Part shown: positions 467 through 47,006 of the stretch, in pieces
How the letters are laid out: each line of letters opens with the position of its first letter
Numbering within the stretch: position 1 is the first letter of the stretch
NCBI GenBank assembly: GCA_963971285.1
Contig: OZ020257.1
Coordinates: 10,120,602 to 10,184,601 of the forward strand
Direction of reading: 5' to 3'
From: Astropecten irregularis
Lineage: Eukaryota > Echinodermata > Asteroidea > Paxillosida > Astropectinidae
Length of the DNA: 64,000 nucleotides
Position numbers and translations under genes: made by a program
Notes under the pieces: generated by a model
The model's input: the letters and a program-made list of their open reading frames with translations, nothing else
Databases searched by the model: none
What the model was told of the DNA's origin: nothing

Positions 467-3400
467 CTTCAGTCCTTTGAAGAACCTCCGTGTTCTCGAG
501 ATGGGATTGTTCTGTCCAAACAGGTCAGTTCCTCTGGTCTTTTCACTTCCAAATTCTACCACAGCTCTCACCAACTAAATATGTAATATTTAAAAAATAT
601 TAACAAATGTCAAAAATTACAATGTACAGGTTCATTCTACAAAGTTGGGGCAGGATTTGTATAGTTGTCAATGAAGCATCAGCAAATGTACACCATAAAC
701 AAAGGTAGGTTAGCGGTGACACCATGCAATCTCTTCTATGACAGTGTGTGGTTCTGAGAAGAACCAGTTGTATTATCTTGACGTTCTGAACAGTGTGCTC
801 TGTTCATCCTCAGGAGAGAAACAAACAGCAAGAGGATGACCAGAGCACACTGTTCCGAATGTTGAGATAATACTAAAATTATATGGTGTCACCGCAAACC
901 TACCTTCTTTTAGTACTTCCACCATGCATAGCTTCAAGTCTTAACAGTATACCATTTTATAATGCATCATAGAGATCCTTAATTAATACTGCTGTATTTC
1001 CTTCCTAATGAACCACTTGATGACGTGGAGGACAGGAAATCAGCGTCCACGTCGCGTCCTCTGGTAACTGCATTCGCAGGCTAATGATTTCTCCAGTCAA
1101 ACAACAACAACAACAACAACAACACCAACGACAACAATGATTTCACCAGATGAACAACAACAATCTAGTCAACCCCCTCCCTCGTCCAAACATGCGCCCT
1201 TATCAGGGCAGGCGGCCCCGATCGTCATAGGGCGAGGTATAGGCCGAGGCATTGCCATTCTCCAAATCAACGTTGAAGGCATCTCTAAAGCGAAAACCGA
1301 AATAATTTCGCACCTAGCGACTGAGAACGAAGCAACCGTCATCGTGCTCCAAGAGACTCACGCCACTTCATCTGAAGTGCTCCAAGTAGCTGGGTACGAT
1401 CTCGCCGCATACAACATCAGCGGTGTGCATGGAATCGCTACGTTTGTCACCAGCTCGGCCTCATGGCAGGACATAGCAATTGCGCCACTCGCGGGTGAGA
1501 TCGAGTGGGCCACTACACAAGTGGAAGGTGTTACAATCACGAACGTGTACAAACCCCCAGGTACCAGCCTCAATGCCGATGATCTGCCTCGTTACCCGCA
1601 GCCGTGTATCTACACCGGAGACTTTAACTGTCACAGCACCACATGGGGTTATAGCTCCACCAACCCCGATGGTGCGGCACTCGAAGACTGGGCATCCATG
1701 TCTGACCTGTCTTTGGTCCATGACCCGAAACAACCGGGTAGCTTTCATTCAGCACGCTGGGGGACAACAACCAACCCCGACCTGGCCTTCGCAAACCTCG
1801 GCCTGCACACCATCAATCGGCGAGTCCTCGACCAGTTCCCTAAGTCACAACATCGACCATCCATCACTGAGTCCTCAGCGGCCATCAAGACGGTTCCAAC
1901 ACGCCCGGTCAAGAGATGGAACTTCCGGAAGGCAGACTGGGACAGTTTCACAGATAATCTGAACTTAGCTGCCAACCAGCTGCCCAGTCCAGCTTCTGAC
2001 CCGGACTCTGCGTACAGTGCGTGGTGTTCTGCGATCCTGGCAGCCGCGAAGAAGACCATCCCCCGGGGATGCCGAGCTGGCCTGATCCCTACGTGGGACG
2101 ATGAATGCCAACAACTGTACGACCACTTCATAAGTGCAGCTCCCGGTGTCGAAGCGAATGAGCGTGCGGTGACCCTGACCAAAGCTCTCGACGAGAAACG
2201 TCGCAGTCGATGGGAGACCAGCACTGAGAACATCGACTTCAGCCACTCGAGCCGTATTGCATGGCAGTCTTTCAACCGCCTCACCGGTCGCGCAAAAAAG
2301 ACCCAGCCCTGCTCAGTGAGTGCCAATGCCATCGCCTCCAAGCTCATCGCGAACGGCCGCCATACCAACGTGGACAAGCAAGTCAGCCGGGACGTGAATG
2401 CAGGGATCGCGCGCCTGAGAGCTAGTGCCACTGCAGCCCTAGGTGCGCTTTCGGAACCCTTCTCAGCAGAGGAAATGTCAGCTGCTGTTAAATTCATCAA
2501 ACCTGGCAAAGCACAGGGCCCCGACAAGATCGCCCCAGAGTTCATCACTCACTGTGGGTCGCACATGCTCACCTGGCTGAGAGTCTTCTTCTGCCAATGT
2601 ATGTCCTCCCTCCGTCTTCCGAAGATCTGGCGCAGGTCGGAAATCATTGCGATCCTGAAACCGAAGAAGCCAGCTGACGACGCCAAGAGCTACCGCCCAA
2701 TCTCGCTCCTCTGCGTGCCGCTAAAACTCCTCGAGCGGCTGTTGTTAGCACGCCTCGAGCCTGTGATTGACCCACAGCTTCCTCCGCAGCAAGCCGGTTT
2801 CCGCCATGGACGCTCCACCACCGACCAAGTGACTCTCCTGACCGATGACATCGAGGCAGGTTTCGAAGCAAAGCACAAGGTCGGCGTGGTCCTGGTGGAC
2901 CTGACCGCGGCCTATGACACGGTTTGGCTGCGTGGACTCCACCTCAAGCTGTTGCGCATGGTCCCTGATGTCCACATGGTCTCTTTCGTGATGGAGCTCC
3001 TCACAAACCGCAGCTTCAAGTTGAAAACTAGCGATGGCCAGGTGAGCGGCCTGAGACGCCTCCGCAATGGCGTGCCTCAAGGTTCCACTCTCTCTCCCAC
3101 TCTCTTCAACATCTACATTAGTGAGTTAGTAACATCCCGCAGACCACATCCATGCAGTACGGTTACGCTGACGATCTGGCCCTACTCGCTGCGGATGACA
3201 CCTGGGAGAAGGTTGAGGAGACACTCAACCACGACATGCAGGCTATAACCAACTATCTGCAGAAATGGCGCCTCATACTTAGCATGGCCAAGACCACCTC
3301 CACGGCATTCCATTTGAACAATCGAGACAGCCAACGCCAACTGGCTATCAGTGTGAACGGCACTATGCTGCCCAACTGCAACCATCCAGTCTACCTTGGT

Positions 3401-9400: not shown

Positions 9401-12400
9401 GAATGTACTCGGGTTAACCCCGAGATCTGGAGTACTTTGCAACCAAAAAGCTTAATTTGCGTCGTCGTGAATGCATTAAGCCTGACCTCAACCAACAATT
9501 CGCCAGTCTCTGTTCTGCACAAACCCCCGTAACTGGGCTATTGTTCGGAGACAACCTGTCACAGCAATGCAAAGACATACAGGAGACGAATAAATTGGGC
9601 CAAAAATTTGGCAAGCGTGCAGGGTCTTTCTCCAACCCGAACAGGGTCATGGAAAGCAGCGCTATAGACGAGGTGGGCAGTCGACCCGCCAATCGGGTCA
9701 GTCGGGTTATTTAAACTCCTCGCGCCCCAGAAACTGGCAGAGGAAGAAACCCTCAGACGGGCAACGCCCGGCTTCGACCAAGTAGAATCCAAGAACCTAT
9801 CGGTAAGTAAACAAGAATACGGTTTAACTGGTCCTAATCATATGGCAGAGGTTTTCCAGGTAGGTAGACTGGCACACTTTGTCGCCAAATGGCGTACAGT
9901 CACGTCTGATGAATGGGTTTTGGACACTGTCCAGCATTACCATAGTGAATTTGCCCAATGGCCTTTTCAAACACACGTTCCTAAAGGGATACGGTTTTCC
10001 GATATGGAATCTGCCCTGATAACCCAAGAGGTTGAAATAATGCTCCAAAAGGGAGCTATTGTTGAGACATCCCACACAGATGGGCAATTTCTGTTCAACA
10101 TTTTTCTGAGACCTAAAAAAGACGGGTCCTTCCGCCCCATCATAAATCTACGGGGTTTGAATGCGTTCGTGGCTTATCCAGGCGCGGTTCTAGAGTCAAA
10201 ATTTTGGGGGGGCTAGAAGAGCCATTATTTTTGGGGGGGCTAGAAGACCCAATATTTTGGGTTCTTCTAACACTCGCTTCTGCTATGTCTTATTAGGGGT
10301 CGAAAAACATGCACATTATAGCCCACATAACGCGTTTTTTATGTAATTGGCGCTTAATAACTGAAAAAATCCAGTATTTTCAAGATTTTTTTTTTTCACT
10401 TTCATTTTTTTGGGGGGGCTAGACGAAATTTTTGGGGGGCTACAGCCCCCCCTAGCCCCCCCGTAGAACCGCGCCTGGGCTTATCACCATTTCAAAATGG
10501 AGACCATTCGTAACGCCTTACAATTAATACGGCCTAATGATTACATGGCCTCTATTGATTTGAAGGATGCATACTTTGCTATCCCTATCGCCAAAGAGCA
10601 CAGAAAATTCCTGCGCTTTATATGGCAAGACAAAGTGTACGAGTTTACATGCCTGCCTTTTGGTTTAGCGTGTGCCCCTCGGGTTTTCACCAAAGGGATG
10701 AAACCTTTAATAGCTTCACTGAGGCAATTGGGCCATGAATCATGTGATTATACATAGATGACTCGTTACTTCTAGGGCGAACAGCCCAAGAATGCATTGA
10801 GAATATTCAGGGAAGAATTACTCTTGCTCAAAACCTTGGGTTTACGGTCAATACCAAGAAATCAGTCTTGACACCCACACAAAATATTGTGTTTCTGGGA
10901 TTTAACTTAAATTCTGTTACAATGACTGTCTCAATACCTTCAACAAAAGTTGAATATGCTGTTAAGACAATTCAGAAACTTATTGAGACAAAATCACCGA
11001 AAATTTGGAATGTTGCTAGCATTGTTGGCCTCTTGGTTTCATGCGAACTTGCTGTACCACATGGCCCCATGTATAGACATGCAGTAGAGAAAGAGAAAAA
11101 TTCAATGCTAGCTGAGAATGGTGGCAATTTTGATGCCAATATGGTTCTGTCTGAACAGGCCATTTGTGACTTACGTTGGTGGTTAAAAACCCTACCAACA
11201 TCTGCGGCCCCAATGCACAGGCAAACGCCTGATTATGTAATATAAACTGATGCCTCAATGGAAGGCTGGGGTGCTTACTGTAATGACCGCACAACTGGAA
11301 GACAATGGTCCCGCCAGGAAGCCAAACACCACATTAATTACCTTGAGCTAAAGGCATGCTTTTTGGCCCTAAAGTCATTCTTTACGGGCAACAATGGCAC
11401 TCAAATCCATCTGAAATCAGACAATACCACAGCAGTAGCCTATCTTAAACACTTCGGTGGCTCAAAATCAGATTCACTGAACTCCCTAACTAGGGAAATT
11501 TGGTCATGGTGTATACACCGTAATATTTGGCTTACGGTATCCCATCTCCCGGGGTCCAAAAACACCCGAGCCGACTATGCGTCTCGACATTTCGGAGACG
11601 ATTTGGAATGGCGACTTGACTCTTGTGTTTTTCAGAGAATAACTAAATGGTTCTTATGCCAGATGTTGATTTATTCGCATCTCGGCTTAATCACCAAGTG
11701 AGTTCATATGTGTCTTGGCGGCCAGACCCAGGTTCTGTACACATAGATGCGTTTACCCTAGACTGGTCTGGGTTTACATGTTTCTATGCCTTCCCGCCGT
11801 TTTGTCTTATTGACAGGGTGCTGACAAAAGTTGAGCACGATGGTGCTAAAGGTATTCTAATCGCACCTTTGTGGCATACCCAACCGTGGTTCCCTAAAAT
11901 GCTAAAACTTCTTGTGAGGAAGCCTTGCATTTTGCCTGCTCGTCATGACCTACTTTCCCTTCCTTTTTCAGACAGACTCCACCCTTTAAGGGATCGCCTT
12001 CGGCTGATTGTCTGCCTCTTATCGGGGAAACACTCCGAAAACAAGGAGTTTCAAGGGAAGCTTCCCAGATCATCCTTTCATCCTGGAGAACCTCTACCAG
12101 GAAGTGCTACAGATCAGCGATACAGAAATGGATTCATTTCTGTAGTAAGACAGGGACTGATCCAGTTCGACCAGATGTAATCTCTGTCGTCAACTTTCTG
12201 GCTGAAGAATTTCACAAAGGAAATTGCTACAGCAATCTCAATACACTGCGAAGTGCCATATCAGCAGTTACTCTACCAATAGAGGGCGTGACCATGGGCT
12301 CACAACCGCTAGTCAAAAGACTGTTGGCAGGTATATTTAACCTCAGACCACCGGCACCTCGGTGCTCGCACACCTGGGATGTGGACGATGTGCTACGTTT

Positions 12401-15400
12401 CCTCAAGACCCTTGGGTCCAACGAGGATCTTTCTATGAAAGACTTAACCATGAAATTGGTCATGTTGATTGCTTTGGTGTCAGGGCAGCGTTGTCAATCA
12501 CTTTCATTAATCAATTTAGATTATTCTGACGTCACCACCACTGGTGTCACGTTTACAATTGACAAACTCACCAAAACCAGCAAAGCGGGCAAGCCCCGCA
12601 CTAGCATATCCCTGACATCATACTCACATGACAATGTACTTTGTGTTGTAAATTGCTTAAGAGCATATCTGGAAAGAACAAGAGCCGTAAGAGGTAACAA
12701 TAGAAGATTGTTTCTAAGTTATGTTCCACCACTCAAGGCTATTGGTGCTGAAACTATAGGCCGCTGGATTAAAGGTACTTTGAAGGCAGCAGGTGTCAAT
12801 ACTGATTGTTTTACTGCTCACAGTACTAGATCTGCATCATGCAGTAAGGCATATATGCACAAGGTGCCACTAGATGCAATTATGAGAACAGCCAGTTGGT
12901 CTAATAGTTCAACTTTTGCTAAATATTATAATAAATGCATCGTTGATAACTGTGTGTTTGCTAATGCCGTTCTGAATACGAATTAAGCCTTATTTGATTT
13001 GTATGAGTGCTTGTGTGCAAACTGACACATGGCTTTATTTTCCAAGATTTAATTCTACTGTGTAGATAACAGTATAGCGAAGTCGCAAATGGAAGTTGCG
13101 GGAAACGCAAGATCATGAAATATGAGTTCTATGTGTTGATATTAATAAAGTTCACTGTGAGAATACAGTGAGTATGCAAAGATGAATTTCTTTTTCATGT
13201 ATGAATGGTATGAATGGTATGAATGACGTACACATGTACTTAACATGCCTTCGGAAGGGTTTTTTTGCAGTCTAAGGGGCTCTAAACATCTCAAGTAAGT
13301 CCGAAGTGCTAGGTGATGTCGAGGTAGAAATTAAAAATTAAACGAAATGAAATTGAAGTTTAATTATGATTCTACCGAGACATCACTAGCACTGAAGGAC
13401 TTACGTCTCCCCCCCCCCTTTACATGGTTTTTCATTGAGGTTATGACTGGTACCCTCCCTTTGGTTGACTGCAAACACCTCTCTATGCACAAAAAATACA
13501 CTGATGCATGGGTAGTGGGGTGGCCTTATAAAGGGCATGCTCCTTGCTTTTAACAATGAGCTCTCTCAAGTGTGACGTTGAAATACCGGTGGCAGGTGCA
13601 ATCTCAAGTAAGTCCTTCAGTGCTAGTGATGTCTCGGTAGAATCATAATTAAACTTCAATTTCATTTTGTTTTATTTTTAAAATATCCAGGAAGTAGATA
13701 TTCATTTTGGGGCACAAGATAATACTATGCATTGCAAATTAGGCTTACCCTTCATCGACGTGGATGAGCACTGTATACTCAGTGGTGAATCGAATCCAAT
13801 ATTGGATTCGATTCCGTTATTGGATTCGATTCACCCTGCAGACCCTAGCTAGCTCAGTGGCCTAGCAGGTAAGGCATCTGCACTAGTAAGCAGGAGGTCG
13901 TGGGTTCGAATCCCACCTGAGCAAGCATGTAATTTTTTTTCACGTGCTCTCACAAGCACTGAGTATACAGTGCTCATCCACGTCGGTGAAGGGTAAGCCT
14001 AATTTGCATATTATCTATTTCCCCGACCAAAAATCATTTAATATTCATGCAGATTATACTACTCGCATTTTATTGTAGTTTCAAAAGCAATAATACACAT
14101 AAAATTGAATAAATAACTGTCAGGCATACATGAAGTGATGACAACTACACCACCTATCCACTGAATAGCCCCCTCAACACATGTATGACCTGTAGGTTAT
14201 ATCAATACAGCAGCAAGGTGAGGTTCCATTCTCATTCCTGCTGGTTGGACAATGATTTGTATGGTGTACATGTACATTTCAACAAAACTTGTATCCCTAG
14301 ACTCTACTTGATGAGCGCACACTTATATTCTTATTTAGATCAAAATGAAATAAACTTAAGCTGGCACTTGTAGGAATATAAAGCAAGAGTCAGAATAAAG
14401 TTTAACAGTAAAGTACCATTTTGCTGATACTGTGTACACATGATCATACAAATTAATCCTCAATAGTAAAGCTACTAACCTTGACATTTTCAGCCAGACG
14501 TTTGGATAATTCTGATGAGTTTTGGTAGCGGATCATGGGGCACTTCTTGAGTGAAAGGAGCACCGCAGTCAATCCAGCACATATTCTATTCAGCACACCA
14601 TTGTTCCACACACTACCCTATATGACATGTAGGCACATGAAAAGGCAGAATTACTACCGGTAGTTTGCTACTTTGCTATCCAGCCACAATATAAAGTAAA
14701 TAGAAAAACAAATATTCCACTGACTCTATTAATTAATTATTATTACATTTATTATGCACCTTTTCTTTAAGTAACTAAGCTTACAAAGTTACTCTACCCT
14801 TATAAAGAGGATATAGTCCCATTCTTTCATCCATGAGGAATTTGTAACTAAATTAACCTTCTAATATAAGCTGAACAAATGAGTAACAGCCAACAAATCA
14901 ATCATTAATGTGCATACACTGTAAATATATTAAATAGTAGGGCCATTTGATACATGCTTGGTCACCAAGTTTATGATTCTCAATCATATTACCTGCAGGT
15001 AACTGATATTCATGATTGGTGAACTGGAGGTTTGGAAATCTGTTCTCAAGATCAATCTTGATTGAACAAGGGTCTGTTCATATGGACACTAGTAGGTTAT
15101 AATATAACTCAGCTGAGATTCACAATACCAGTATCTGTTATAGTCACTCAGTAAGTTTTGTTGGTACTGCTCCTGACCCCAACCCAACATATATTACATG
15201 TCAATTTGTAATTCAGGAGATAAACATGAATATAATACATACCCGTGAACAACCCACTATGTTGAAAGAGTAGATATGTGGACTGACTGCAATGAAGTCT
15301 CCATAAAACTCCTACAATTAAACACACGTACACTATTATCAGCACATTGAAAGGACTCTCACAACCAACCCTACGTGTATACTGGTCACTGTGCTCTCTT

Positions 15401-22920: not shown

Positions 22921-25900
22921 ATGGCAACAGAGGAGGAAATTGACGATGCACTGTACAGGTGAGAAACATAAATTCATTTGTATCACACCGAACTGAGTCC
23001 CTTTACCAGTCACAAAGTTCATTTTCCTCTTCGTCTATCATCTAATATTCTTGTCGCAATGTTTTCAGTTAATCTATACCAATAGGAACTTGTTCCTGCA
23101 GATAACAAAAACAGTACTACTGTACTCTTTGTATTTTTAATATAATTGAAATCAAGTTTATACATCAAAGGCGTATTTGCTATCTCCATTAACTTAAGGT
23201 TTATGGTGCACTATGTAAATATGTAAATCATCAAAAAACCACAAGGGAAACTTACTGATTAATTTTAAGTTATTGAGTAGTGAACAAAGAAAAATTGACT
23301 GGAATAGGATTCAAACCAGTGACCTTCGGAATACCATACCGGTGCTTTACCAACTGAGCTATCCAGCCCTATGTTGGTGGTGTCCCTAATAGTCAATTAT
23401 CTTTGTTTGTTTGGCAGTCAGAAGCCACGAAACCACTCACATACTGCTATATATCAAGGAAATAGTATATCTATAAAAAGTGGTGGGTGCAAAAGAAGCA
23501 GGGTTTCTATTAAAGTTGAATTCTTAGCAAGCACATACAATATGGTCTGATTCTCTTCTACATGACAGCCAGAACATACAAGCCATGATGCCCAGTTTAA
23601 ACCTTACATCTTTCAGGGACGGATCCAGGGGGAGGTGGGGGCATCTTCAAAAAAGAAGGGATATCAAAATATTTGGCCATTTAACGTCAGGCCCGCCAAA
23701 TTATGCCAGCTTTGATTGCCCCGAAATGCATCCATCACTATTGAATTGGTGCATTTATCCCCCCCTGGAAAATCCGGTATCTGCTCCTGTCTTTACTTGT
23801 TGGTTCTTTCAAATCCAGCTGTTCTGGCAAAGAAATAATCACTAGTTGTTTTTGTCTACATGATTGACTTGTTGGTTTTTTATTTCTCTAATACTTTACA
23901 GTCGTCAGCGCTATGTTCTTGGTGATACAGCCATGAAGGCTATGGCCCATTCCAATGTCTTCTTGAGTGGATTAGGAGGTCTTGGTGTTGAAATAGGTAT
24001 TTGATGACATTATCATAATTGTGCAAAGTTCACACACAGTATCTGATGGCATATCTTGATGTTACAAAGTTCACACACATTTGATTGATATTGAGGCTTG
24101 ACAATTGCGTAATACTTTCATCCCAATACAAATTGAATTAATTCAGTTTATCTTACATGACTTACATGTTTGCTTTATTCACTATGACCCCATTCTCTTT
24201 CCCATGTCATATCCTTGGGATATTTGCTTAAATTCATCCAGTTATAGATTCCGGTGTACTTGGCAAATCATTACATTACAAAATGTAAATATTGGTTATC
24301 ATTTCTCTCCTTTCCAGCCAAAAATGTGGTGCTCGCAGGAGTCAGGGTAAGGCAACAAGTTGTTTGTTAGAATGAATTTCAGTGTTGAAGATTTGAAAGT
24401 TCTTTATTCAAAGAAAACGTCATGCAAGTGTTGAATTGTTTTTAGTAAATTTGTCTGTACTTTTCATACAGTTATAAAGATGGATTTCACATGCAATGTT
24501 TCAACCAAAAACATAAAGGAGGCAGTGTAAAGTTTGTCCATCGGCATTTGTCTCATTACACATCATTAAATAGTGAAATACATGTAGAGTTGCATGCATG
24601 TGTATTTGAATTCCATCAGAGATTCCTGTGATGTTTTTCACAGGAATGTGGGGTTTCACCTGGGTAATATAGTGCTTCAGCATGCTCAAGGGACAGGGGG
24701 AAGAGTATAGCTTATCAGATTTTATTACATCTTATGTGATAATTAACACATTCTTGTTCTATTTCTTATAGTCCTTGATGGTACATGACACAAAAACAGC
24801 AACTTATAAGGATCTTGGAACTCAGTTCTTTCTCCGGGAAAAGGATGTTACAGCAAAGAGAAACAGGTACATTATACAGTTATACTCATCAGATTCATTC
24901 AAACTGGGTACAGTCTACAGTTCAGTGTATAACAAGTATAACACAGTATAAGGAGAATGCGATGACAAGTCAAAATGGATTGCTCATCTTTAAATGTTCT
25001 GTACAGTAACTAACTTGTCCATGGGGGAAATGGGGTATTGAATCATACCCAAACAATTTCAATTGGAATAAATCTTTCATTTGGAAACATGTACTGTGTC
25101 ATACCATCAATAAAACCAGACTTCAACACAATAAATATAGTGTATATAGTGGATGATATTGGCTGTGACTCTGAGGATCTATCAGCACTGATGAGGGACA
25201 GTGACAGGTGGAAAGATTGTGTCAAGGAATGTTGAGCTCGCTCTACCTGATGATATTTAAAACTGAATTGATAAATAATAATGTCTTTATGTCAGTTCAT
25301 TTCTAGTAAGTTGATATGGAAACCTTTATTCTTCTACTCATTTCATTATTATTTTGTATGATTTGTTTATACAGGGCTGAAGCATGTGAGGCACGTCTTG
25401 CTGAGCTCAATCCTCATGTTTCCATCAAGTCATCTACAGACACTCTCTCTATGGATTCAGATCTTAATTTCCTGTGTCAGTATCAGTGTGTTGTCTTGAC
25501 AGAGGCTACTCGGAGTCTGCAAATCAAAGTGGATGCATTTTGCCGGACCCAGAAACCACCAATCAAGGTGATATACTGTACCAATGTTAGGAATAATGCT
25601 ACTTTACTGTTATTAAGATTTCCGTCAGATGATAGATTTGAAAAGTGAACAAAAAGAATTTGACACCGTTCTCAGGTTGCAGCATTGCTGCATGTATCGA
25701 TGAAATGATCCTTGGGATATGGCAGTGTGTCCGTGGTTTCATGGCTTCTGTCTGCCAAATGAACAAAGATAATTGACTATTGGGGTCACCACCAACGTAG
25801 GGCTGGATGACTCAGTTGGCAGAGCGGTCGGTTGGCAGGTCATTGGTTCGAATCCTGCCCTAGTCAATTTTTCTTTGTTCATTTTTTAAGTTCACTTAGT

Positions 25901-31900: not shown

Positions 31901-34900
31901 TAGATGGATCTTGAATTGTAATAATACTGATTTGATTGATGTTTTGTTTTGTTGTATAGAAACCCAAATCCACTACTGCAGCTGACTCTACTCAGGATAT
32001 TAATCCAGCACTTCATATAGAGGCACATCAACATAAAGGTATACATTGCATCTTACATATTCATACTGAAATCATTGCATTTCAAGTCAGGTCTGGTTTC
32101 AGACTCATACAAGCACCTGGAATCAAACAGACTTGTAATTGTGTAGCCTGTATGATTTGCTATTCCATGAATCAATCTGATATGAGAATGCTTGTGATGA
32201 CTCTGTGTGCAACTGAACACTTGGCCTACAGTTGTTCTCATATTGAATGAGTCGTACATGGTGACATCTTCAAGTGTTTGTAGATTATACCTTCACTGAT
32301 GCAAACTCTGATATTTCTCTTTATCTCTTATAGTTTGTCCTGCTACAGAGATGACTATTTTCAATGATACATTCTTCAAGAGGATGGATGTTGTAGTCAA
32401 TGCATTGGATAATGTGGCAGCCAGGCAATATATGGACAGGTTAGATATACAATCTATCAAGTATCATGTATCTGTCAGATAACTTCCTTGCTTCCTTCCT
32501 TAGTTGAATATTGAGTTTTATATAACACCTTAGTAGATCCTTGTCATTTGATTGGAGGATTGTATGTCACGTGATATTTGATAAATAGACCAATTCATGG
32601 CTTACGTCACAACCGTTGAAATTTGTTCCATCCACCGTGCATTTTTGGTTCCATCCGATTTGTACCATTGCACGCCAGGGACTCTAATACGTGATTGGTC
32701 AAGCGGCATTTCATTTATTTGTCACCGCGTGCGCGCGTACGCGTTGGTGTGCAACGCGCGTTACTGTAATAAGAGCATATAGTTTGCCAAGATTTTAAGC
32801 TTTTTTTGTCTCGCTAACTCTTAAAATGTTATCCTCCAATCAAAATCAAATGACAAAGATCTACTTAGATGTTTTATATAACACCTTAGTAGATCCTTGT
32901 CATTTGATTGGAGGATTGTATGTCACGTGATATTTGATAAATAGACCAATTCATGGCTTACGTCACAACCGTTGAAATTTGTACCATCCACCGTGCATTT
33001 TTGGTGCCATCCGATTTGTACCATTGCACGCCAGGGACTCTAATACGTGATTGGTCAATGTGGCGTTCCATTTATTTGTCACTGCGTGCGCGCGTACGCG
33101 TTGGTGTGCAACGCGCATTACTGCAATAAGAGCAATATAGTTTGCCAAGATTTTAAGCTTTTTTTGTCTCGCTAACTCTTAAAATGTTATCCTCCAATCA
33201 AAATCAAATGACAAAGATCTACTTAGATGTTATATAAAGCAAATAATGAATGTTTCACATTCGTAGAATGGAAAAAATAATTTCATTCGGTGACAGATGG
33301 ACTGTTCCATTCCACTCGGCTTCGCCTCGTGAAATGGAACAGTCCATCTGTCACCTCATGAAATTATTTTTACCATTCCACTCATAAACATTCATTATTT
33401 GTATAATATAAAACAAATAATGAATGTTTCACTTCGCCTCGTGAAATGGAACAGTCCATCTGTCACCTCATGAAATTATTTTTACCATTCCACTCATAAA
33501 CATTCATTATTTGTATATCATTTAGTTTGTCTGCATCTATATTAGATCTTGTATAAGAAAGGGGTAGTTGTATGTCAACAGTCCCATTAGAGAGGTTTGG
33601 CATGCAACGGATACGGTTAGCGCGCCGGATATGTCACCAGTTTTTGTGTACTTTTGCTATCAGCTATACGTCTAAGAGGCATGGATATCTTGATCGATTC
33701 GCGCAAGTATGAAATGCGAAGCGAATTTCCATTTTCTCGTAATTCTCTGTTAATTTTTTGTCTTGTGCATGTCAAAAAGAAAGGATTTGCTGAACACTAA
33801 TATGTCATTTCTATGTATTTCAAAACTTAAGAATATGATAAAATTAGCCTCAAAGTCAGGGACAAAACTGGTTCTCTGTTCGGAAATAGACTTCACTATT
33901 GCAAAACATCCGGATCAGCTGTTGACGTTTACGGATAGCTATACGCTTATTCGTATTCATTCGCATGTGAAACCTCCCTAATGTATGTACATCTCAAGAT
34001 TAAGTCCATTTTGTGCAAATATTGTAGCTGTATCTTCTGCATACTGATATTTACAATTCATTGATGGTATTATTTATTGCTTGTTATCTGTATAGCCGAT
34101 GTGTAACCAATGAGAAACCTCTGATGGAATCAGGTACTATGGGAGCTAAAGGTCATGTACAGGTCATTATACCTCATATGACTGAGACCTATGCTAGTCA
34201 ACGTGATCCACCTGATGAATCGGTCCCATATTGTACACTCAAGTCATTCCCATCTACTGTAGAACATACTATACAATGGGCTAGAGATAAGGTAAGACAT
34301 GATGACCCTTCACATATAACCTCTGACCTCCGACCATTGACTTGATGTTATAGACCTAACGTTTGCAACATCACAGCCTGAGTTTTTGCCAAACAAGATA
34401 GCAGAAACTATGGCGAGCCATCAAAAGCAACCAAACCATATGAACACATATGAACACAATTTTTATATTGATAAACATTCAAAGATATTGCTGAATTTAA
34501 ACAATGGCGCTATGTATTATGTACAGCTATGGGAAGTTTGCTAAAATGAATTTGGTCACATATTCTGTCAAGAAAATTAAATATTTTTTAACATTTGGCC
34601 GCCCATGCCAACCATCAGCGGTTGTTTGTATGGTCTTGGTTCATGACGTTGTTATTAATTGAATTGTATGAACCGATTCCCCTCACTGACCCACACGCAC
34701 GTATGTCTTGGGAATTCTGTAAAGGCCTCGAGTTGCATGTGCACCTCGTTATGTTGCGTGCTACGTCGTCTCCATGACGCACTGTTGAATATGTATGATT
34801 ACCTGCACGGGCCTGCATGCACGGACATGTACGTGTATGTTAATTGGCTGTGCCCTACTTCGAAAGTAACGTATGCGCATTGTGTCTTCCCCCGTTTTCG

Positions 34901-37900
34901 GACGGAGATTTTACAGGATTCCAAACACGTTGTAAGTGACAGTTCCGTGCATATGTGTGCGGATCATCTGTATGGACGTACATAGTGTACATGTGTGCTG
35001 GTCAGTGTGGTTTGAGTATCCACACCAATAACGTTGTGAACCAAGACTATTATTTGTAAACATTAGAAAGGTCTTTATGATTGGATACATCTAATGTGTG
35101 CATCACTATATTTCACTATATTTCATTTGATTAATTTAATTTTTGTTTATATTCATGTCACAGTTTGAGAGTTCTTTTACCCAGAAGCCCACAATGTTTA
35201 ACAAGTATTGGATGACCAATGGCAAGCCGGAAGATGTATTAAAGGTAAACAAATTAGGTTGATTGTTTGAATTGCATATTTGAATACAGAATAAGTATTT
35301 TAGTCACTTTCTTACTATCACAAAAATAAATCACAAAAAATGAATAATATGAAAAATTAAGACAAACTCAATATGCCTTGTTCAGGTTTGTTTAGTGTTC
35401 AATATTTCAATATTGGTGAGTTTCCCAGCATTACCTGAACCACAGAGTAGTTAGAATGGCTATGAAGTGTAAATTCCTTGCTTGGCTTAATTTGTTTGTT
35501 TACAGAAGTTTAAAGAGAACATTCAACCAGAGAACTCTGTATCAGTCATCAAGATTCTCAGGAACAGACCATCCAGCTGGGCGGAGTGTCTGTCAATGGC
35601 CAGGATCAAATTTGAAAAATACTTCAACCACAAGGTACATGCATGCATCAACAGTGAAACTTGCTAACAGTGCTAATGAGTCACTACAATCTCTATGGGA
35701 ATTACACAGAACAGATTGTTGGTACTGCACCAACTGGTAACCAGCATATTACCAACTCTGCATTCCGTTAAGCACACTATTTAGAATGAAGCTTTGATCT
35801 CATTAGTGAATGTCAGCAGTAATGGTATACTATACATGTATGTAATGTAATGTAGGATGTATCAATCTTTCTGACAAGGCCTCCATCAGTCTCAATGCAC
35901 ACATAGCCAAATGCCATCACATACAGACCTATTTGATTGTACAACTGTGTTTAGGTGACTGACTACAATTATAAGACATGTGTTGCTATGTGATGATCCC
36001 CTGTTATTGTCACCATCAGATGCCAGTGTGTACATGTAGATGGAGGTATATATTCTTAACTTGTTGTCTTCTCTGATTGGTTGCTTAACAGGCCAGGCTT
36101 TTGCTATCTGTCTTTCCATTGGACCACAAGATGAATGATGGAAGTAAGTTGTAGCTTTGCTAATTCTCAATGATATGTTCAGATTTCTTTTTCGCATAGC
36201 ATTGTATTACTGTTCCAAGTATACGGCGCATCCATGTATATGGCGCACCCTCAACTTTTGACATCAGCTGGCAGAAAAAAAAATCATCCGTGGACAACCA
36301 GAAAAATATGGAAAACTGCAGCGCTCATTTTTCTAAGGTCATTTGTGATTTGTATTTCACTTGAGAATTCAAGAAAAATAAAAACAATGAATTCCACAAT
36401 CCAACTCACAACTTTCGGCGATGCTTTGCCTGAGTTTGCAACAACCCGAAGTGCGTTTACATTGGCTACCAGTGCCACACCATGCTGCACCACGCCGCAA
36501 CGAAAGCAGTACTACCGTTACGCGTGCAGCAGGCCCACAACACGTTGTGCACAACACGTGCAAACAGTATTCAATCTCCACCATAGTAGACTTCCTCTAC
36601 AGTCTACATATTCAACAGACCCCATTCAATTCAATATTCAATACATTCCCGTTCCGTATACCTCAATTGCAGTCTGTTATATAAATTTATGTGAGTGGAT
36701 AATGTGTTGCAAGCGCTGCGTGTCCAACTAAATATGATAATAACGACTCAATCCAAAGCTATCGTCATTTCCCTGGCATGAAATGCTTACCCGTGGCACG
36801 TGTTCACGACAAGGGCTGATGACTGCTGGTCAACTTGTACTGTACGCCGACCAACTCCTACGCCGTCCAACTCGTATGCCAACCAACTCATACACCGACC
36901 AACTCATACGCCGACCAACTCATACGCCGTCCAACTCATACGCCGTCCAACTCGTACGCCGTCCAACTCGTACGCCATTCAACTCGTACGCCATCCAACT
37001 CATACGCCGTCCAACTCATATGCCGTCCAACTCATATGCCGTCCAACTCGTACGCCGTCCAACTCATACGCCGTCCAATTCGTACGCCGTCCAACTCAAA
37101 CGTTGTCCAACTCATACGCCGTCCAACTCATACGCCATCCAATTCATACGCCGTCCAACTCGTACGCCGTCCAACTCGTACGCCGTCCAATTCGTACGCC
37201 GTCCAACTCGTACGCCGTCCAACTCGTACGCCGTCCAACTCGTACGCCGTCCAACTCGTACGCCGTCCAACTCGTACGCCGTCCAACTCGTACGCCGTCC
37301 AACTCTTACGCCGTCCAACTCTTACGCCGTCCAACTCATACGCCGTCCAACTCATACGCCGTCCAACTCGTACGCCATCCAACTCGTACACAAACCAACT
37401 CGTACGCCGTATAACTCTTACGCCGTCCAACTGATACGCGCGTATCTAATTTTGTGATTGGCTAGACGATCCCACTGTGATCATCTTACAATAAAACAAA
37501 TCAAAATGGTGATTCACGTTGCAGCATAACGCTGTCGCGAACTGGACTTTTTTACCTATGATGATAAGGATATTTCCCAATGGAAACGTGACTATTGCTG
37601 ATTAAAATAATGACTCCAGACAAAGGTTTGATAATTTATTGAACGATCACGACATTCTTAAATGAAATGTGTACCTCGGACGGCCAGTCTGACCGTCACG
37701 GTCTGGAGCTTGTATTTACTGTAATTTGTAAATGCACATGTCCACTCGCCCGTCGTTGTGCACATGTTGCGGTGCTCCAACCATGTTTTTGCATATTATT
37801 TTCAGTGTCTCTAATCTTAACTCTAACTGAGTTTGCACTTTAGTTTTCCTTGGCCTATCGCAAGAGTCGGAAATATTAGTTTTTGTAAATGGTATCTTTC

Positions 37901-43900: not shown

Positions 43901-45232
43901 TAATTGACTATATGGGGACACCACCAATGTAGGGGCTGGATAGCTCAGTTGGTGGAGCGCATGTACGGTATTCAGGAGGTTGCTGGTTCGAATCCCGCTC
44001 CAGTCAATTTTTTCTTTGTTCACCTTTTAATGAGTTAAAAATCCAGTCAGTTTCCCTTGTGATTATTTGATGATTAGACATATTATATTGCACAGGTTAT
44101 GATTATATATTGATATAGCATAACAGGATACCATGATCCTGTTAGAATCAGATGTTTTACAACGTCACATTAACCTGAATATACCCAGTAAATAAGCTAG
44201 TAGTAGTTCCACTCAGATGTACGTTTACTTAAAGTACATGTAGTACTCACAGTTTAGAATCATAGCTTTGCAGTTCACAGTGTCCTCATCATAACCATTG
44301 CATTGTAATTTACATTGTACAGGATATGTATGACATGAATATATCTCTGGTTGTACATGGTGTCAAGATGGTCTTTGTTCCTATGATGCCTGGACATATG
44401 AAAAGACTCAACAAAACGTAAGTTGAATAAATCTTTAGTCTTTACATAATTTGAAAATCTTGAAAAATCAATGTTCAATCTTATGTGTTTATGCAAGAAT
44501 CATTTGAAACTTAAGGCCTATTTACACATATGCAACTTTGTTGCACGGTTTTTAAACTGCGCACAAATCTATGGTAGTGTTTACATTTACATGATAAAGT
44601 AGTGCGACTTGTCACATGACTTTTTAAAATTAAATTGAAAAGTGATTTTGTCTCGCGACAAATAAAGTTGGCCACATATTTCCCGATGTCTTCATATGCC
44701 AGCTGTATTGATTGGTTAGGAAAGATGGACAAGAAAATGATAACTGAGGTCCAGAAATACAATGAATAGATGCCGGGAGAAGAGACAACATACTTGGGCC
44801 TAATTATGATCTCATCCTGATGGTATGCCCCAGGATTGCCCTAGCTGCCAAAAAAAGCAGTAGGCCCCTAAGTAAAATATCTTCTTCCTCATCCGAGGAC
44901 AAAGAAAATGACGCATTATATTATGAGGTGGCAATGTTTTGAAAAAGAGAAGTCGTGCAACAGATCGCATAATTTTGGACAGCTGCACGTTTGCGACTTT
45001 CTCGCATGACTAAATGGTTGCAACAAAGTTAATAGGCATTTATATTATATTATCATTGCTTGATCCTTGAAAGAACATCTCTTTGATTTGATGTAGTATG
45101 CTGGAGTTGCTGAAACCGAGTGATGGGACTCAATATGCTGATCTGACTGTTGGATTTGAAGCTATTACATCAGGAGATGATGATGAAGATTTACCAGCCC
45201 CTCCCATTAGATATTACTTCCGGTCTCAGTAA
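22921..45232 (+). CDS. UBA6: UBA6, E1 activating enzyme for ubiquitin and FAT10
   Basis: Adenylates ubiquitin (and FAT10 in vertebrates) and carries it as a thioester. Exons: 22921-22958, 23902-23996, 24318-24346, 24772-24866, 25375-25567, 26427-26549, 26827-26950, 27131-27240, 27854-27987, 28845-29058, 29772-29839, 30552-30708, 31335-31412, 31960-32038, 32334-32439, 34096-34291, 35164-35244, 35506-35634, 36092-36143, 39452-39515, 40221-40362, 41349-41466, 42013-42206, 43104-43319, 44323-44417, 45097-45232. Total 3066 nt, 1021 codons plus TAA; human UBA6 has 1052. The [18 protein letters not shown] start marks UBA6 as distinct from UBA1. ATP site GCGAIG is at 436-441, [15 protein letters not shown] at 464-478, and the catalytic Cys of [10 protein letters not shown] is about 594 (34232). 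The ubiquitin-fold domain ends in [13 protein letters not shown]. The last 19 codons begin a tandem array. Confidence 0.95.
23226..23461 (-). mobile_element. T2 tRNA-like SINE copy 1
   Basis: Minus-strand tRNA-like unit in UBA6 intron 1. Reading inward: CCACAAGGGAAAC tail, GAACAAAG, AATTGACTGGAATAGGATTC (B box side), CCAACTGAGCTATCCAGCCC (A box side), then GGTGTCCCTAATAGTCAATT, ATCTTTGTTTGTTTGGCAGT and GAAACCACTCAC. It shares this order with six other loci in the window. Confidence 0.7.
25660..25925 (+). mobile_element. T2 tRNA-like SINE copy 2
   Basis: Plus-strand copy in UBA6 intron 5, with GGTTTCATGGCTTCTG, ACAAAGATAATTGACTATTG, GGGCTGGATGACTCAGTTGG (A box) and GGTTCGAATCCTGCC (B box), then TTTCTTTGTTC and a degraded TTTTCCTTTTGGTTA tail. 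It lies directly next to a T1 fragment. Confidence 0.65.
25945..26095 (-). mobile_element. T1 element fragment
   Basis: Keeps GAATTAGGCTT, AGCACTGTATGCTCAATGCT and the minus-strand tRNA-like part (GGCTCAGATGAGATTCGAAC, ACCTCCTGCTTACTTGTGCA, CACCAAGCTAGCTAGGGT). The far inverted end is missing. Confidence 0.6.
27473..27820. mobile_element. TTAA-MITE, diverged copy
   Basis: TTAA at 27473 is followed by AGGTAAAGTACAGTATTGGT, CAGAAATGCTCACAAATTTA, CGTATAACTTTCAGGGTATA and the CAGAAATTAGTAAAACAAAG block. The right part is weakly conserved, ending near ATCTTTACCAATCTTGTCAC. It ends within 40 bp of UBA6 exon 27854-27987. Confidence 0.5.
30746..30990 (-). mobile_element. T2 tRNA-like SINE copy 3
   Basis: Minus-strand copy in UBA6 intron 12. 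It has AATAACCACAAGGGAAACTG, AATTGACTGGAGCAGGATTT, CCAGCTGAGCTATCCAGCCC, GTGTCCCCAATAGTCAATTA and GAAACCACGCACACACCGCC, ending at CCCCAAGGATCATT. Confidence 0.7.
32515..33232. mobile_element. Tandem dimer of a 356-bp inverted-repeat element
   Basis: Two near-identical units start at 32515 and 32871. Each opens with TTATATAACACCTTAGTAGA and GTCATTTGATTGGAGGATTG, and closes with the inverse (TTATCCTCCAATCAAAATCA, ATGACAAAGATCTACTTAGA). The GC-rich middle holds GTGCGCGCGTACGCG. The junction TTTTATATAACACC is shared between units. They lie in UBA6 intron 15. Confidence 0.75.
33239..33516. mobile_element. Pair of palindromic MITE copies, second with an arm deletion
   Basis: The first unit, 33239-33402, is an almost complete hairpin: CAAATAATGAATGTTTCAC against CATTCATTATTTG, and GACAGATGGACTGTTCCATT against its inverse around the loop CTCGGCTTCGCCTCG. 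The second, 33413-33516, has the same ends but lacks most of the left arm, so it no longer folds fully. Confidence 0.7.
36835..37440. repeat. 16-bp minisatellite
   Basis: About 37 tandem copies of the unit CGTACGCCGTCCAACT with variants (CGTACG or CATACG; CCGTCC, CCATCC or CCGACC). Because 16 is not a multiple of 3, the three forward frames read the same 16-residue repeat, [16 protein letters not shown], in different phases, and all are open. Similar frames are open in reverse. It lies in UBA6 intron 19, with no splice sites or start context that would suggest translation. Confidence 0.9.
38236..39380 (-). mobile_element. T2 tRNA-like SINE copy 4, split by a hAT element
   Basis: Left part about 38236-38385 (AGGATTGAACCAGCGATATC, CAACTGAGCTATCCAGCCCT, GGTGTCCCTGTTAGTC, AGACAGAAGCTACGAAACCA). 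The rest resumes at 39349 with CCACGCACATACCGCTATAT. The two parts are separated by the 963-bp element at 38386-39348, and the 8-mer CCACGCAC is present on both sides of it. Confidence 0.75.
38386..39348. mobile_element. Non-autonomous hAT element with TAGGGCTGTC ends
   Basis: The 963-bp insert starts TAGGGCTGTC and ends GACAGCCCTA, a perfect 10-bp inverted repeat. It is flanked by the duplicated 8-mer CCACGCAC (38378-38385 and 39349-39356). Subterminal CGAATATTCG motifs are repeated at both ends. The 8-bp duplication and TAGGG-type ends fit the hAT superfamily. I found no transposase motif in either strand, so it would need an enzyme from elsewhere. Confidence 0.9.
39643..39895 (-). mobile_element. 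T1 element, second long copy
   Basis: Left end TATGCAAATTAGGCTTGCC, GATGTGGATGAGCATTGCAT. The minus-strand tRNA-like centre has GTGGGATTCGAACCCACGAC (B box), CCTGCTTACTAGTGCAGATG and CTAAGCTAGCTTGGGTCAGC (A box side). A second ATGCAAATTAGGCTTGC at about 39877 is in direct rather than inverted order, so the right end was rearranged or belongs to another copy. It is in UBA6 intron 20. Confidence 0.65.
40447..40632. repeat. Interspersed repeat with ACAGTGGAACACTGC and TATAGTG motifs
   Basis: Ends read ACAGTGGAACACTGCTTATA and TTATAGTGGTGTTACATTGT, with repeated ATAATGAAC or TATACTGAAC phrases inside. A related, inverted copy lies at about 51655-51797. There is no coding capacity. It is in UBA6 intron 21. 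Confidence 0.45.
40799..41272. mobile_element. MITE with TTTCACACC inverted ends
   Basis: Left TAAGCTCCTTTCACACCGGG and right CGGTGTGAAAGGGGCTTA pair over 22 bp with few mismatches. The 474-bp interior is rich in GCGTA and TACGC words on both strands. No ORF is credible. It is in UBA6 intron 21. Confidence 0.7.
41542..41930. mobile_element. TTAA-MITE, truncated copy plus second fragment
   Basis: TTAA, then AGGTAGTATCATACTTTGG and the complete left half of the element as far as the TTGATCTTTTAAAAGAT centre at about 41720. A second left-half fragment (AAGTTACAGGGTATGAAGAT, GCTGTATTTATCCAGAAAAT) follows at about 41806-41930. Both are in UBA6 intron 22. Confidence 0.6.
42370..42416. mobile_element. 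T1 element terminal fragment
   Basis: TATGCAAATTAGGCTTGGCC followed by TTCACCAACGTAGTAGATGA matches the first 45 bp of the T1 element. Nothing else of the element remains. It is in UBA6 intron 23. Confidence 0.45.
43735..44075. mobile_element. T2 tRNA-like SINE, inverted dimer
   Basis: Two tRNA-like units face in opposite directions. Minus strand at about 43757-43838: TTGACTGGAGCGGGATTCG, CCAACTGAGCTATCCAGCTC. Plus strand at about 43930-44008: GGCTGGATAGCTCAGTTGG, GCTGGTTCGAATCCCGCTCC, AGTCAATTTT. They are joined by GTCAATTCTTTGTTCGTGAA and CATTCCGGGATAATTGACTA, making a long hairpin. The plus-strand unit keeps the GTTTCCCTTGTGATTATTTG tail. It is in UBA6 intron 24. Confidence 0.75.
44512..45045. 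mobile_element. MITE with GCAACTTTGTTGCA ends
   Basis: Left TTAAGGCCTATTTACACATA and TGCAACTTTGTTGCAC are matched in inverse by GGTTGCAACAAAGTTAATAG and GCATTTATA on the right. Inner pairs such as AGTAGTGCGACTTGTCACAT and GCGACTTTCTCGCATGAC also suggest folding. It fills most of the last UBA6 intron and ends about 50 bp from the final exon. Confidence 0.55.
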
Positions 45233-46487
45233 GAAGCAACCTGGTCTACTGCAGCAAGGTTTGATGATGATGAAGATTTACCAGCCCCTCCCATTAGATA
45301 TTACTTCCAGCCTCAGTAAGAAGCATCCTGGTCTACTGCAACAAGGTTTGATGATGATGAAGATTTACCAGCCCCTCCCATTAGATATTACTTCCAGTCT
45401 CAGTAAGAAGCAACCTGGTCTGCAACCTGGTCTACTGCAACAAGGTTTGATGATGATGAAGATTTACCAGCCCCTCCCATTAGATATTACTTCCAGTCTC
45501 AGTAAGAAGCAACCTGGTCTGCAACCTGGTCTACTGCAACAAGGTTTGATGATGATGAAGATTTACCAGCCCCTCCCATTAGATATTACTTCCAGTCTCA
45601 GTAAGAAGCAACCTGGTCTACTGCAACAAGGTTTGATGATGATGAAGATTTACCAGCCCCTCCCATTAGATACTACTTCCAGTCTCAGTAAGAAGCAACC
45701 TGGTCTACTGCAACAAGGTTTGATGATGATGAAGATTTAACAGCCCCTCCCATTAGATATTACTTCCAGCATCAGTAAGAAGCAACCTGGTCTGCAACCT
45801 GGTCTACTGCAATAAGGTTTGATGATGATGAAGATTTACCAGCCCCTCCCATTAGATATTACTTCCAGTCTCAGTAAGAAGCAACCTGGTCTGCAACCTG
45901 GTCTACTGCAACAAGGTTTGATGATGATGAAGATTTACCAGCCCCTCCCATTAGATACTACTTCCAGTCTCAGTAAGAAGCAACCTGGTCTGCAACCTGG
46001 TCTACTGCAACAAGGTTTGATGATGATGAAGATTTACCAGCCCCTCCCATTAGATATTACTTCCAGTCTCAGTGAGAAGCATCCTGGTCTGCAACCTTGT
46101 CTACTGCAACAAGGTTTGATGATGATGAAGATTTACCAGCCCCTCCCATTAGATATTACTTCCAGTCTCAGTAAGAAGCAACCTGGTCTACTGCAACAAG
46201 GTTTGATGATGATGAAGATTTACCAGCCCCTCCCATTAGATATTACTTCCAGTCTCAGTAAGAAGCATCCTGGTCTACTGCAACAAGGTTTGATGATGAT
46301 GAAGATTTACCAGCCCCTCCCATTAGATATTACTTCCAGTCTCAGTAAGAAGCATCCTGGTCTGCAACCTTGTCTACTGCAACAAGGTTTGATGATGATG
46401 AAGATTTACCAGCCCCTCCCATTAGATATTACTTCCAGTCTCAGTAAGAAGCATCCTGGTCTACTGCAACAAGGTTTGATGATGATG
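45176..46487 (+). repeat. Tandem array of the UBA6 C-terminal codons including the stop
   Basis: Units start at 45176, 45263, 45350, 45449, 45548, 45635, 45722, 45821, 45920, 46019, 46118, 46205, 46292 and 46391, with a partial fifteenth at 46478. Spacing is 87 bp, or 99 bp when a 12-bp block (TGCAACCTGGTC) is doubled; both are multiples of three. Each unit in the UBA6 frame reads [15 protein letters not shown], then QSQ or a close variant, then a stop (TAA, once TGA). Unit 1 is the true UBA6 end and alone has Arg (CGG) before SQ. The units are over 95% alike, so the array is young or homogenised. It lies in the 3' untranslated region if the first stop is used. Confidence 0.92.
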
Positions 46488-46530
46488 GTGCAGTGTAGGA
46501 ATGCTGATAGAACTATCAACAGCAGAGAGG

Positions 46531-46747
46531 TTTAAGGTCTTTTCACACAACGCTAAAAACATCTCAACCATGGGTTTGGACCTCGGTCAAAATCTCTCAA
46601 GGATTCACCAGGGACGTCGGTCACTGTCAAGCATTGGTGTCCTTTCACACGATGACACTTTTGTCATGTTTGTAAGATATTGTAACCATGAGAGAATTTC
46701 TCAACAGTTGAGAGGTTTTTTTTAGCGTCGTGTGAAAAGGCCTTTAA
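46531..46747. mobile_element. Foldback MITE with TTTTCACAC ends, TTAA-flanked
   Basis: Left TTTAAGGTCTTTTCACACAA and CGCTAAAAA pair with right TTTTTAGCGTCGTGTGAAAA and GGCCTTTAA. The inner segments ATCTCAACCATGGG and TCTCAACAGTTGAGAG add weaker pairing. It lies about 45 bp after the UBA6 repeat array, probably inside the 3' untranslated region or just beyond. Confidence 0.65.
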
Positions 46748-47000
46748 TTGCACATTTTGTAAGATGTCACGAGAGTGTCCAAATATATGGCAGGGAAGTC
46801 AAACTTGAAAAGGTGCACATAAGACTGCATAATTGATTGCTTAGCTGCACGACACGTCTGTCATGTCTGTGTGAACAGGGTTTTGTACATGATGATGAAA
46901 TCATCTCATCAAAATCATCAAGCAAATCGTGGAGGCCTCATAGATAAGCTTCATTTCATAATCTGTTACTAAAGAAAAAACCGCAAACTGCTAGATTTTA

Positions 47001-47006
47001 AATAAA
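47001..47006 (+). terminator. Candidate UBA6 polyadenylation signal
   Basis: AATAAA in TTTTAAATAAATTCC, the first canonical signal I noticed on the plus strand after the repeat array. If used, the 3' untranslated region would be about 1.8 kb and include the array and the foldback element. Weak evidence: AT-rich sequence often contains this hexamer. Confidence 0.25.

Follow-up and report, generated by a model that had tools for sequence, protein, structure and literature searches.

How does the stop codon of an E1 enzyme gene come to lie inside a tandem repeat, and do the additional copies of the coding end do anything for the gene that carries them? The UBA6 locus of Astropecten irregularis raises this question, having an array of near-identical units that begins within the last exon and runs on past the stop codon. 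We analyzed a window of 64,000 nucleotides containing this locus (positions 10,120,602 to 10,184,601 of OZ020257.1), which lies on contig C21 of the genome that was searched (475.7 Mb in 168 contigs). Coordinates are window positions unless another contig is named.

The gene is UBA6 and ends in the first unit of the array

By sequence similarity, the gene is UBA6, being closer to it than to UBA1 or UBA7, with the C-terminus included. A query assembled by eye from the exon translations of the region from ~23.9 to 45.2 kb scored 1063 bits against UBA6 chains (9ykv_A), compared with 701 for UBA1 and 500 for UBA7, and the third stretch aligned to UBA6 extends to query residue 917 of 919. The gene was followed on the + strand from 23864 to 45232, i.e., from the frame with the first adenylation-domain glycine motif to the stop codon of unit 1, a span without the N-terminal exon(s); position 23864 marks where that open frame starts, not an exon boundary.

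The penultimate exon (44323 to 44417, +) ends in ...CTCAACAAAAC ahead of GTAAGT and continues in frame into T/ATGCTGGAG of the last exon. The coding part of the last exon occupies 45097 to 45232 (+), beginning AG/TATGCTGGAG behind an AG acceptor at 45095 to 45096, and the joined exons read in frame to the unit 1 stop. Its translation matches the C-terminus of UBA6 PDB chains with an E value of 8.6e-7 (DEDLPGPPVRYYF in those chains). This C-terminal match and the in-frame exon join agree with the original prediction that the true gene end is unit 1. A donor-like GTAAGA is present within the stop context, CAGTAAGA.

A genome search with Pfam E1_UFD gave two matches, both on contig C1, and missed the UBA6 gene of the window, a miss that might be due to the division of the domain among short exons. 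At the end of another E1 gene, presumed to be UBA1-like (a 3.1-kb locus on C1, L010), TRF found no tandem repeats; this is a single comparison.

Fourteen units, each with its own stop codon

TRF placed a tandem array of 14.1 copies at 45176 to 46487. Splitting it at GATGATGATG gave 14 complete head-to-tail units (45176 to 46477) and a 10-bp partial copy of the same sequence at the right edge (46478 to 46487, +). Unit 1 (45176 to 45262, +) is 87 bp long and comprises the authentic C-terminal codons, the TAA stop, and 30 bp of 3′ UTR, whereas units 2 to 14 (45263 to 46477, +) are copies of it, 87 or 99 bp each, located 3′ of the authentic stop. The units start at 45176, 45263, 45350, 45449, 45548, 45635, 45722, 45821, 45920, 46019, 46118, 46205, 46292, and 46391. 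Half of them (7/14; units 1, 2, 5, 6, 11, 12, and 14) have 87 bp and the other half (7/14; units 3, 4, 7, 8, 9, 10, and 13) have 99 bp, the difference being a 12-bp internal tandem duplication, GCAACCTGGTCT.

Each unit has one in-frame stop and keeps the UBA6 frame (14/14), with TAA in 13 of the 14 and TGA in unit 10; what had been counted as the last 19 codons are 18 sense codons plus the stop. The TRF result and the unit split thus confirm that the UBA6 stop lies inside a 14-copy array of the last codons and stop, and the predicted spacing of 87 or 99 bp, the lengths divisible by three, the retained frame, and the single TGA among TAA stops were all found when the 14 units were checked. By chance, every unit length would be divisible by three in ~1 of 9 cases. 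Because of these lengths, a second + frame is also open through the array, at 45147 to 45740 and 45816 to 46535. A hidden second protein in that frame was rejected, as unit 7 breaks the frame twice and there is no sign that it is read.

The units are ~98% alike, with a mean pairwise substitution of 2.3%, and a 1.3-kb array of such units is far beyond chance. Minisatellites are recognized by head-to-tail units of ~10 to 100 bp, several copies, and high identity, all of which the array has. Ten alignment columns vary, and several units are identical to one another (3 = 4 = 8; 5 = 11; 12 = 14). As predicted, unit 1 alone has CGG (Arg) at the codon that is CAG in the others (13/13), and a further private base in its spacer (column 91) adds to this difference. 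The original prediction took the CGG codon to mean that homogenization had not reached the coding copy, a reading that the distances between units do not favor. The largest mean distance to the other units is that of unit 7 (5.38), far beyond that of unit 1, which ranks second (3.54) with unit 10 just below it (3.31), so that unit 1 is not singled out. Unit 14, at the right edge, is not diverged (2.00).

At four pairs of variable sites all four combinations are present, and three of these pairs involve the 12-bp insert, which indicates that variants were reshuffled between units, that the insert was gained and lost, or both. Adjacent units were not significantly more similar than random pairs (P = 0.21), and stepwise local duplication is thus unsupported by this test. 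TRF also gives periods of 186 and 372 bp, but higher-order block duplication was rejected in view of the unit-order test (P = 0.21).

Since tandem arrays are error-prone in assemblies, the real genome might have fewer copies, or just one. However, the ten variable columns and the two unit lengths are spread irregularly along the array, against a simple stutter, and the window is free of N on a contig of 18.4 Mb; we consider an assembly artifact scarcely credible.

An ordinary kind of repeat at an unusual site

The array unit was found at this locus only, with 14 DNA matches and 15 protein matches in two genome searches in which only the best candidates were scored, and a dispersed repeat family was rejected on these grounds. 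Applied to 10 random 10-kb loci, TRF detected arrays of at least 500 bp in three, namely a 219-bp repeat filling its locus, a 510-bp array, and a 1061-bp array, which extrapolates crudely, from 100 kb, to ~14,000 such arrays genome-wide. With a round figure of ~25,000 genes and random placement, some tens of arrays would be expected to begin in the last 57 coding bases, a crude estimate that ignores selection. One such stop-spanning array is therefore not astonishing, and it is the site of the array that is unusual, the kind of repeat being ordinary. Among the open-licence literature matches listed, none deals with this locus or with a minisatellite that spans a stop codon, which is weak evidence of absence, and the portion of PMC1273636 that was available contains nothing on stop-spanning arrays.

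Several other repeats occur in or near the gene. A second minisatellite between UBA6 exons (36842 to 37432) repeats a 16-bp unit, GTACGCCGTCCAACTC, ~37 times and leaves three + frames open. With an 80-bp query from it, at least 128 matches were obtained on many contigs (the best 40 of 223 candidates were scored), which shows arrays of this sort to be scattered through the genome. Also between UBA6 exons, 32517 to 33237 is a two-copy tandem duplication of 356 bp with 96% matches. A MITE-like element (46531 to 46747, +), located 43 bp past the UBA6 array, carries TTTAA at each end and terminal inverted repeats of 29 bp that are 90% complementary; it has at least 74 genome matches (the best 40 of 1759 candidates were scored), and 40 places, this one included, head the list. 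Farther away in the window, an open frame at 1068 to 3245 with endonuclease and reverse transcriptase domains is probably a non-LTR retrotransposon. At 10748 to 12983, a Phage_integrase (tyrosine recombinase) domain comes after a weak reverse transcriptase match, below the Pfam cut-off, a pair that we take to suggest a DIRS-like retrotransposon.

Searches of the assembly also returned COX1 matches on contigs C168, C131, and C25. The mitochondrial COX1 is on contig C168 (16,335 bp), just behind tRNAs Ala(+), Leu-TAG(−), Asn(−), and Gln(+), as called by ARAGORN. Among eight genetic codes applied to this contig, table 9 (echinoderm and flatworm) was the only one to yield the conserved motif STNHKDIG where the frame starts; table 21 yielded STNHKDMG, tables 4, 5, 13, and 24 had Lys instead of Asn, and tables 2 and 14 produced different longest frames. 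The tRNA order corresponds to the inverted cluster known from sea stars and brittle stars, and both features point to a probable echinoderm, perhaps an asteroid or ophiuroid. A second match (L023; contig C131, 102,890 bp) is a 552-amino-acid open frame without an internal stop, unlike the mitochondrial copy on C168, and its contig is possibly from a bacterial contaminant or associate. The third (L025; C25:9951047-9952018) is partial, has seven in-frame TGA codons, lies on a 14.4-Mb contig, and probably represents mitochondrial DNA copied into the nucleus.

Units 2 to 14 show no sign of constraint and no excess of stops

Comparing the units of this array with one another, we detected no constraint on units 2 to 14. 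The coding-derived part (6/57 positions) and the spacer plus insert (4/42) have variable columns at equal density, and among the variable sense-codon columns four of five are nonsynonymous, compared with 77% expected without selection, although these numbers are small. In unit 7, a Pro of the conserved LPAPP stretch is changed to Thr.

Back-up stop signals had been proposed as a consequence of the array. Its 434 codons include 14 in-frame stops, compared with 27.8 ± 4.7 in 1000 dinucleotide shuffles, none of which was as low as 14. The whole-array shuffle overstates this deficit because the array is one unit repeated; when a single unit was shuffled, 86% of 2000 trials gave one or more in-frame stops. 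A unit with one stop clearly has no surplus of them, and back-up stops as a special property were rejected, the in-frame stops being fewer than in shuffles.

The array is probably in the mRNA and predicted to fold weakly

When ten polyadenylation hexamers were scanned, none was found from the stop of unit 1 up to 46781. The earliest after the stop were AATATA at 46782 and TTTAAA at 46997, and the first AATAAA past the authentic stop is at 47001 to 47006 (+). With no hexamer inside it and the first AATAAA at 47001, the array is probably included in the mature UBA6 mRNA, as far as these signals in the DNA can tell.

The proposal that the array makes a structured 3′ UTR fared poorly. Two units fold at −24.6 kcal/mol, compared with a shuffle mean of −38.3 (z, +3.3; 200/200 shuffles at least as stable), and a 941-nt stretch folds at −151 compared with −228 (20/20 at least as stable). 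When the control was itself a tandemly repeated shuffled unit, the z scores were +3.0 for the 87-bp unit and +2.5 for the 99-bp unit, with 150/150 controls at least as stable for each, and we rejected a structured 3′ UTR on these comparisons. The array RNA is instead predicted to be unusually unstructured. A single unit already behaves in this way (299/300 shuffles at least as stable), and the weak folding may reflect the composition of the unit and its coding origin.

These two properties, the probable presence in mRNA and the folding weaker than that of every two-unit, 941-nt, and tandem control, are what a functional element of the UBA6 3′ UTR could build on: an unstructured repeated RNA would bind a protein or tune stability or translation, with the copy number as its dose. 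There is precedent for human VNTR genotypes tracking expression, in that the available part of PMC8096271 describes, for MXRA7, a VNTR partly overlapping a 5′ UTR exon whose genotype correlates with expression. However, the units vary about equally in all their parts, and the weak folding of the single unit is simply multiplied in the array; neither unit constraint nor a stable fold was found in this one array. We consider such an element quite unlikely.

The downstream units could also be a store of alternative C-termini that supplies replacements for unit 1 through unequal exchange or conversion, with the result that the last residues of UBA6 would differ between individuals. Their tails do differ (RSQ, QSQ, QPQ, and QHQ), and variants appear reshuffled between units. 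However, the tail variant of unit 1 is absent from all other units, which gives no sign of a recent replacement, and most tail variants fall past the conserved RYYF; this makes such a store highly improbable. A broader proposal, in which the array is a self-shielding repeat with interchangeable C-termini, the first alone being translated, where recombination swaps or regenerates the end of the enzyme and the copy number of an unstructured 3′ UTR tunes the mRNA, is in our view very unlikely. The array is most likely neutral and self-shielding, and the tests lean against the functional readings.

Probable origin by duplication between two 10-bp direct repeats

The array is very probably a single-locus minisatellite that was born by tandem duplication between two 10-bp direct repeats, GATGATGATG. 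This sequence lies exactly at both edges of the array, at 45176 and 46478, with a left extension of 0 bp and a right partial copy of 10 bp, which we read as the right-hand seed repeat. If the array is read as a single copy, 87 bp separate the starts of the two repeats. Outside the array, GATGATGATG occurs once within the window (57135), and in 100 kb of sampled genome it had 0 occurrences on either strand.

The model of Haber and Louis, as given in the accessible part of PMC3389668, holds that slippage or unequal crossing-over can duplicate a sequence that has direct repeats of 5 to 10 bp on its flanks, and the direct repeat at both array edges is of the size that it requires. The second initiation model in that part of the source is slipped-strand mispairing, whose mark is an incomplete terminal unit, and it might have initiated the array, since the 10-bp partial copy might pass for such a unit; however, the authors looked for a truncation of at most 10%. 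The 10-bp edge repeat suits the direct-repeat model best. Two observations do not add to the case for a direct-repeat origin: the weak RNA folding is not among its predictions, though a single unit already shows it, and the reshuffling at three of the four site pairs could reflect loss of the insert by slippage. The divisibility of every unit length by three, at odds of ~1 in 9, counts against it.

Under the direct-repeat origin, one seed copy of GATGATGATG would be the sequence coding for Asp-Asp-Asp in the acidic UBA6 tail, and the other would have sat in the 3′ UTR, 87 bp farther on and beyond the stop. The stretch would then have been duplicated by slippage or unequal crossing-over between the two, an initiating event that we infer from the array edges alone, and further unequal exchange or gene conversion would have brought the array to 14 units, while a 12-bp spacer duplication arose and spread to half of them. 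Having the stop within the unit explains how the array could grow, as the left copy keeps the complete tail and stop. The first unit, whichever it is, would give the complete C-terminus and the remaining ones would be 3′ UTR, so that the array could grow or shrink without breaking the enzyme; with a stop in every unit, expansion would only lengthen the 3′ UTR. Its copy number may well continue to change.

The array therefore offers a clear example of a tandem repeat invading the end of an important coding region harmlessly, with the in-unit stop shielding the protein at each step. It suggests a rule by which stop-spanning arrays are tolerated, whereas arrays wholly upstream of the stop must keep the frame. 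It is also a warning for annotation, because 13 of the 14 near-identical tail copies are presumably untranslated.

Comparison with known minisatellites

Human terminal exons contain VNTRs in SLC6A3 (in the 3′ UTR) and CEL (in the last coding exon), each on one side of the stop codon. The UBA6 array resembles them in being a tandem repeat in a last exon, but here a stop is present in every unit, whereas there the repeat stays on one side of it. With the single-locus minisatellites (VNTRs) with flanking direct repeats that are covered in the accessible part of PMC3389668, the array shares its 87- or 99-bp units, its internal variants, its 10-bp edge repeats, and its restriction to one locus; unlike those, it straddles the boundary between coding sequence and 3′ UTR and carries a stop codon in each unit.
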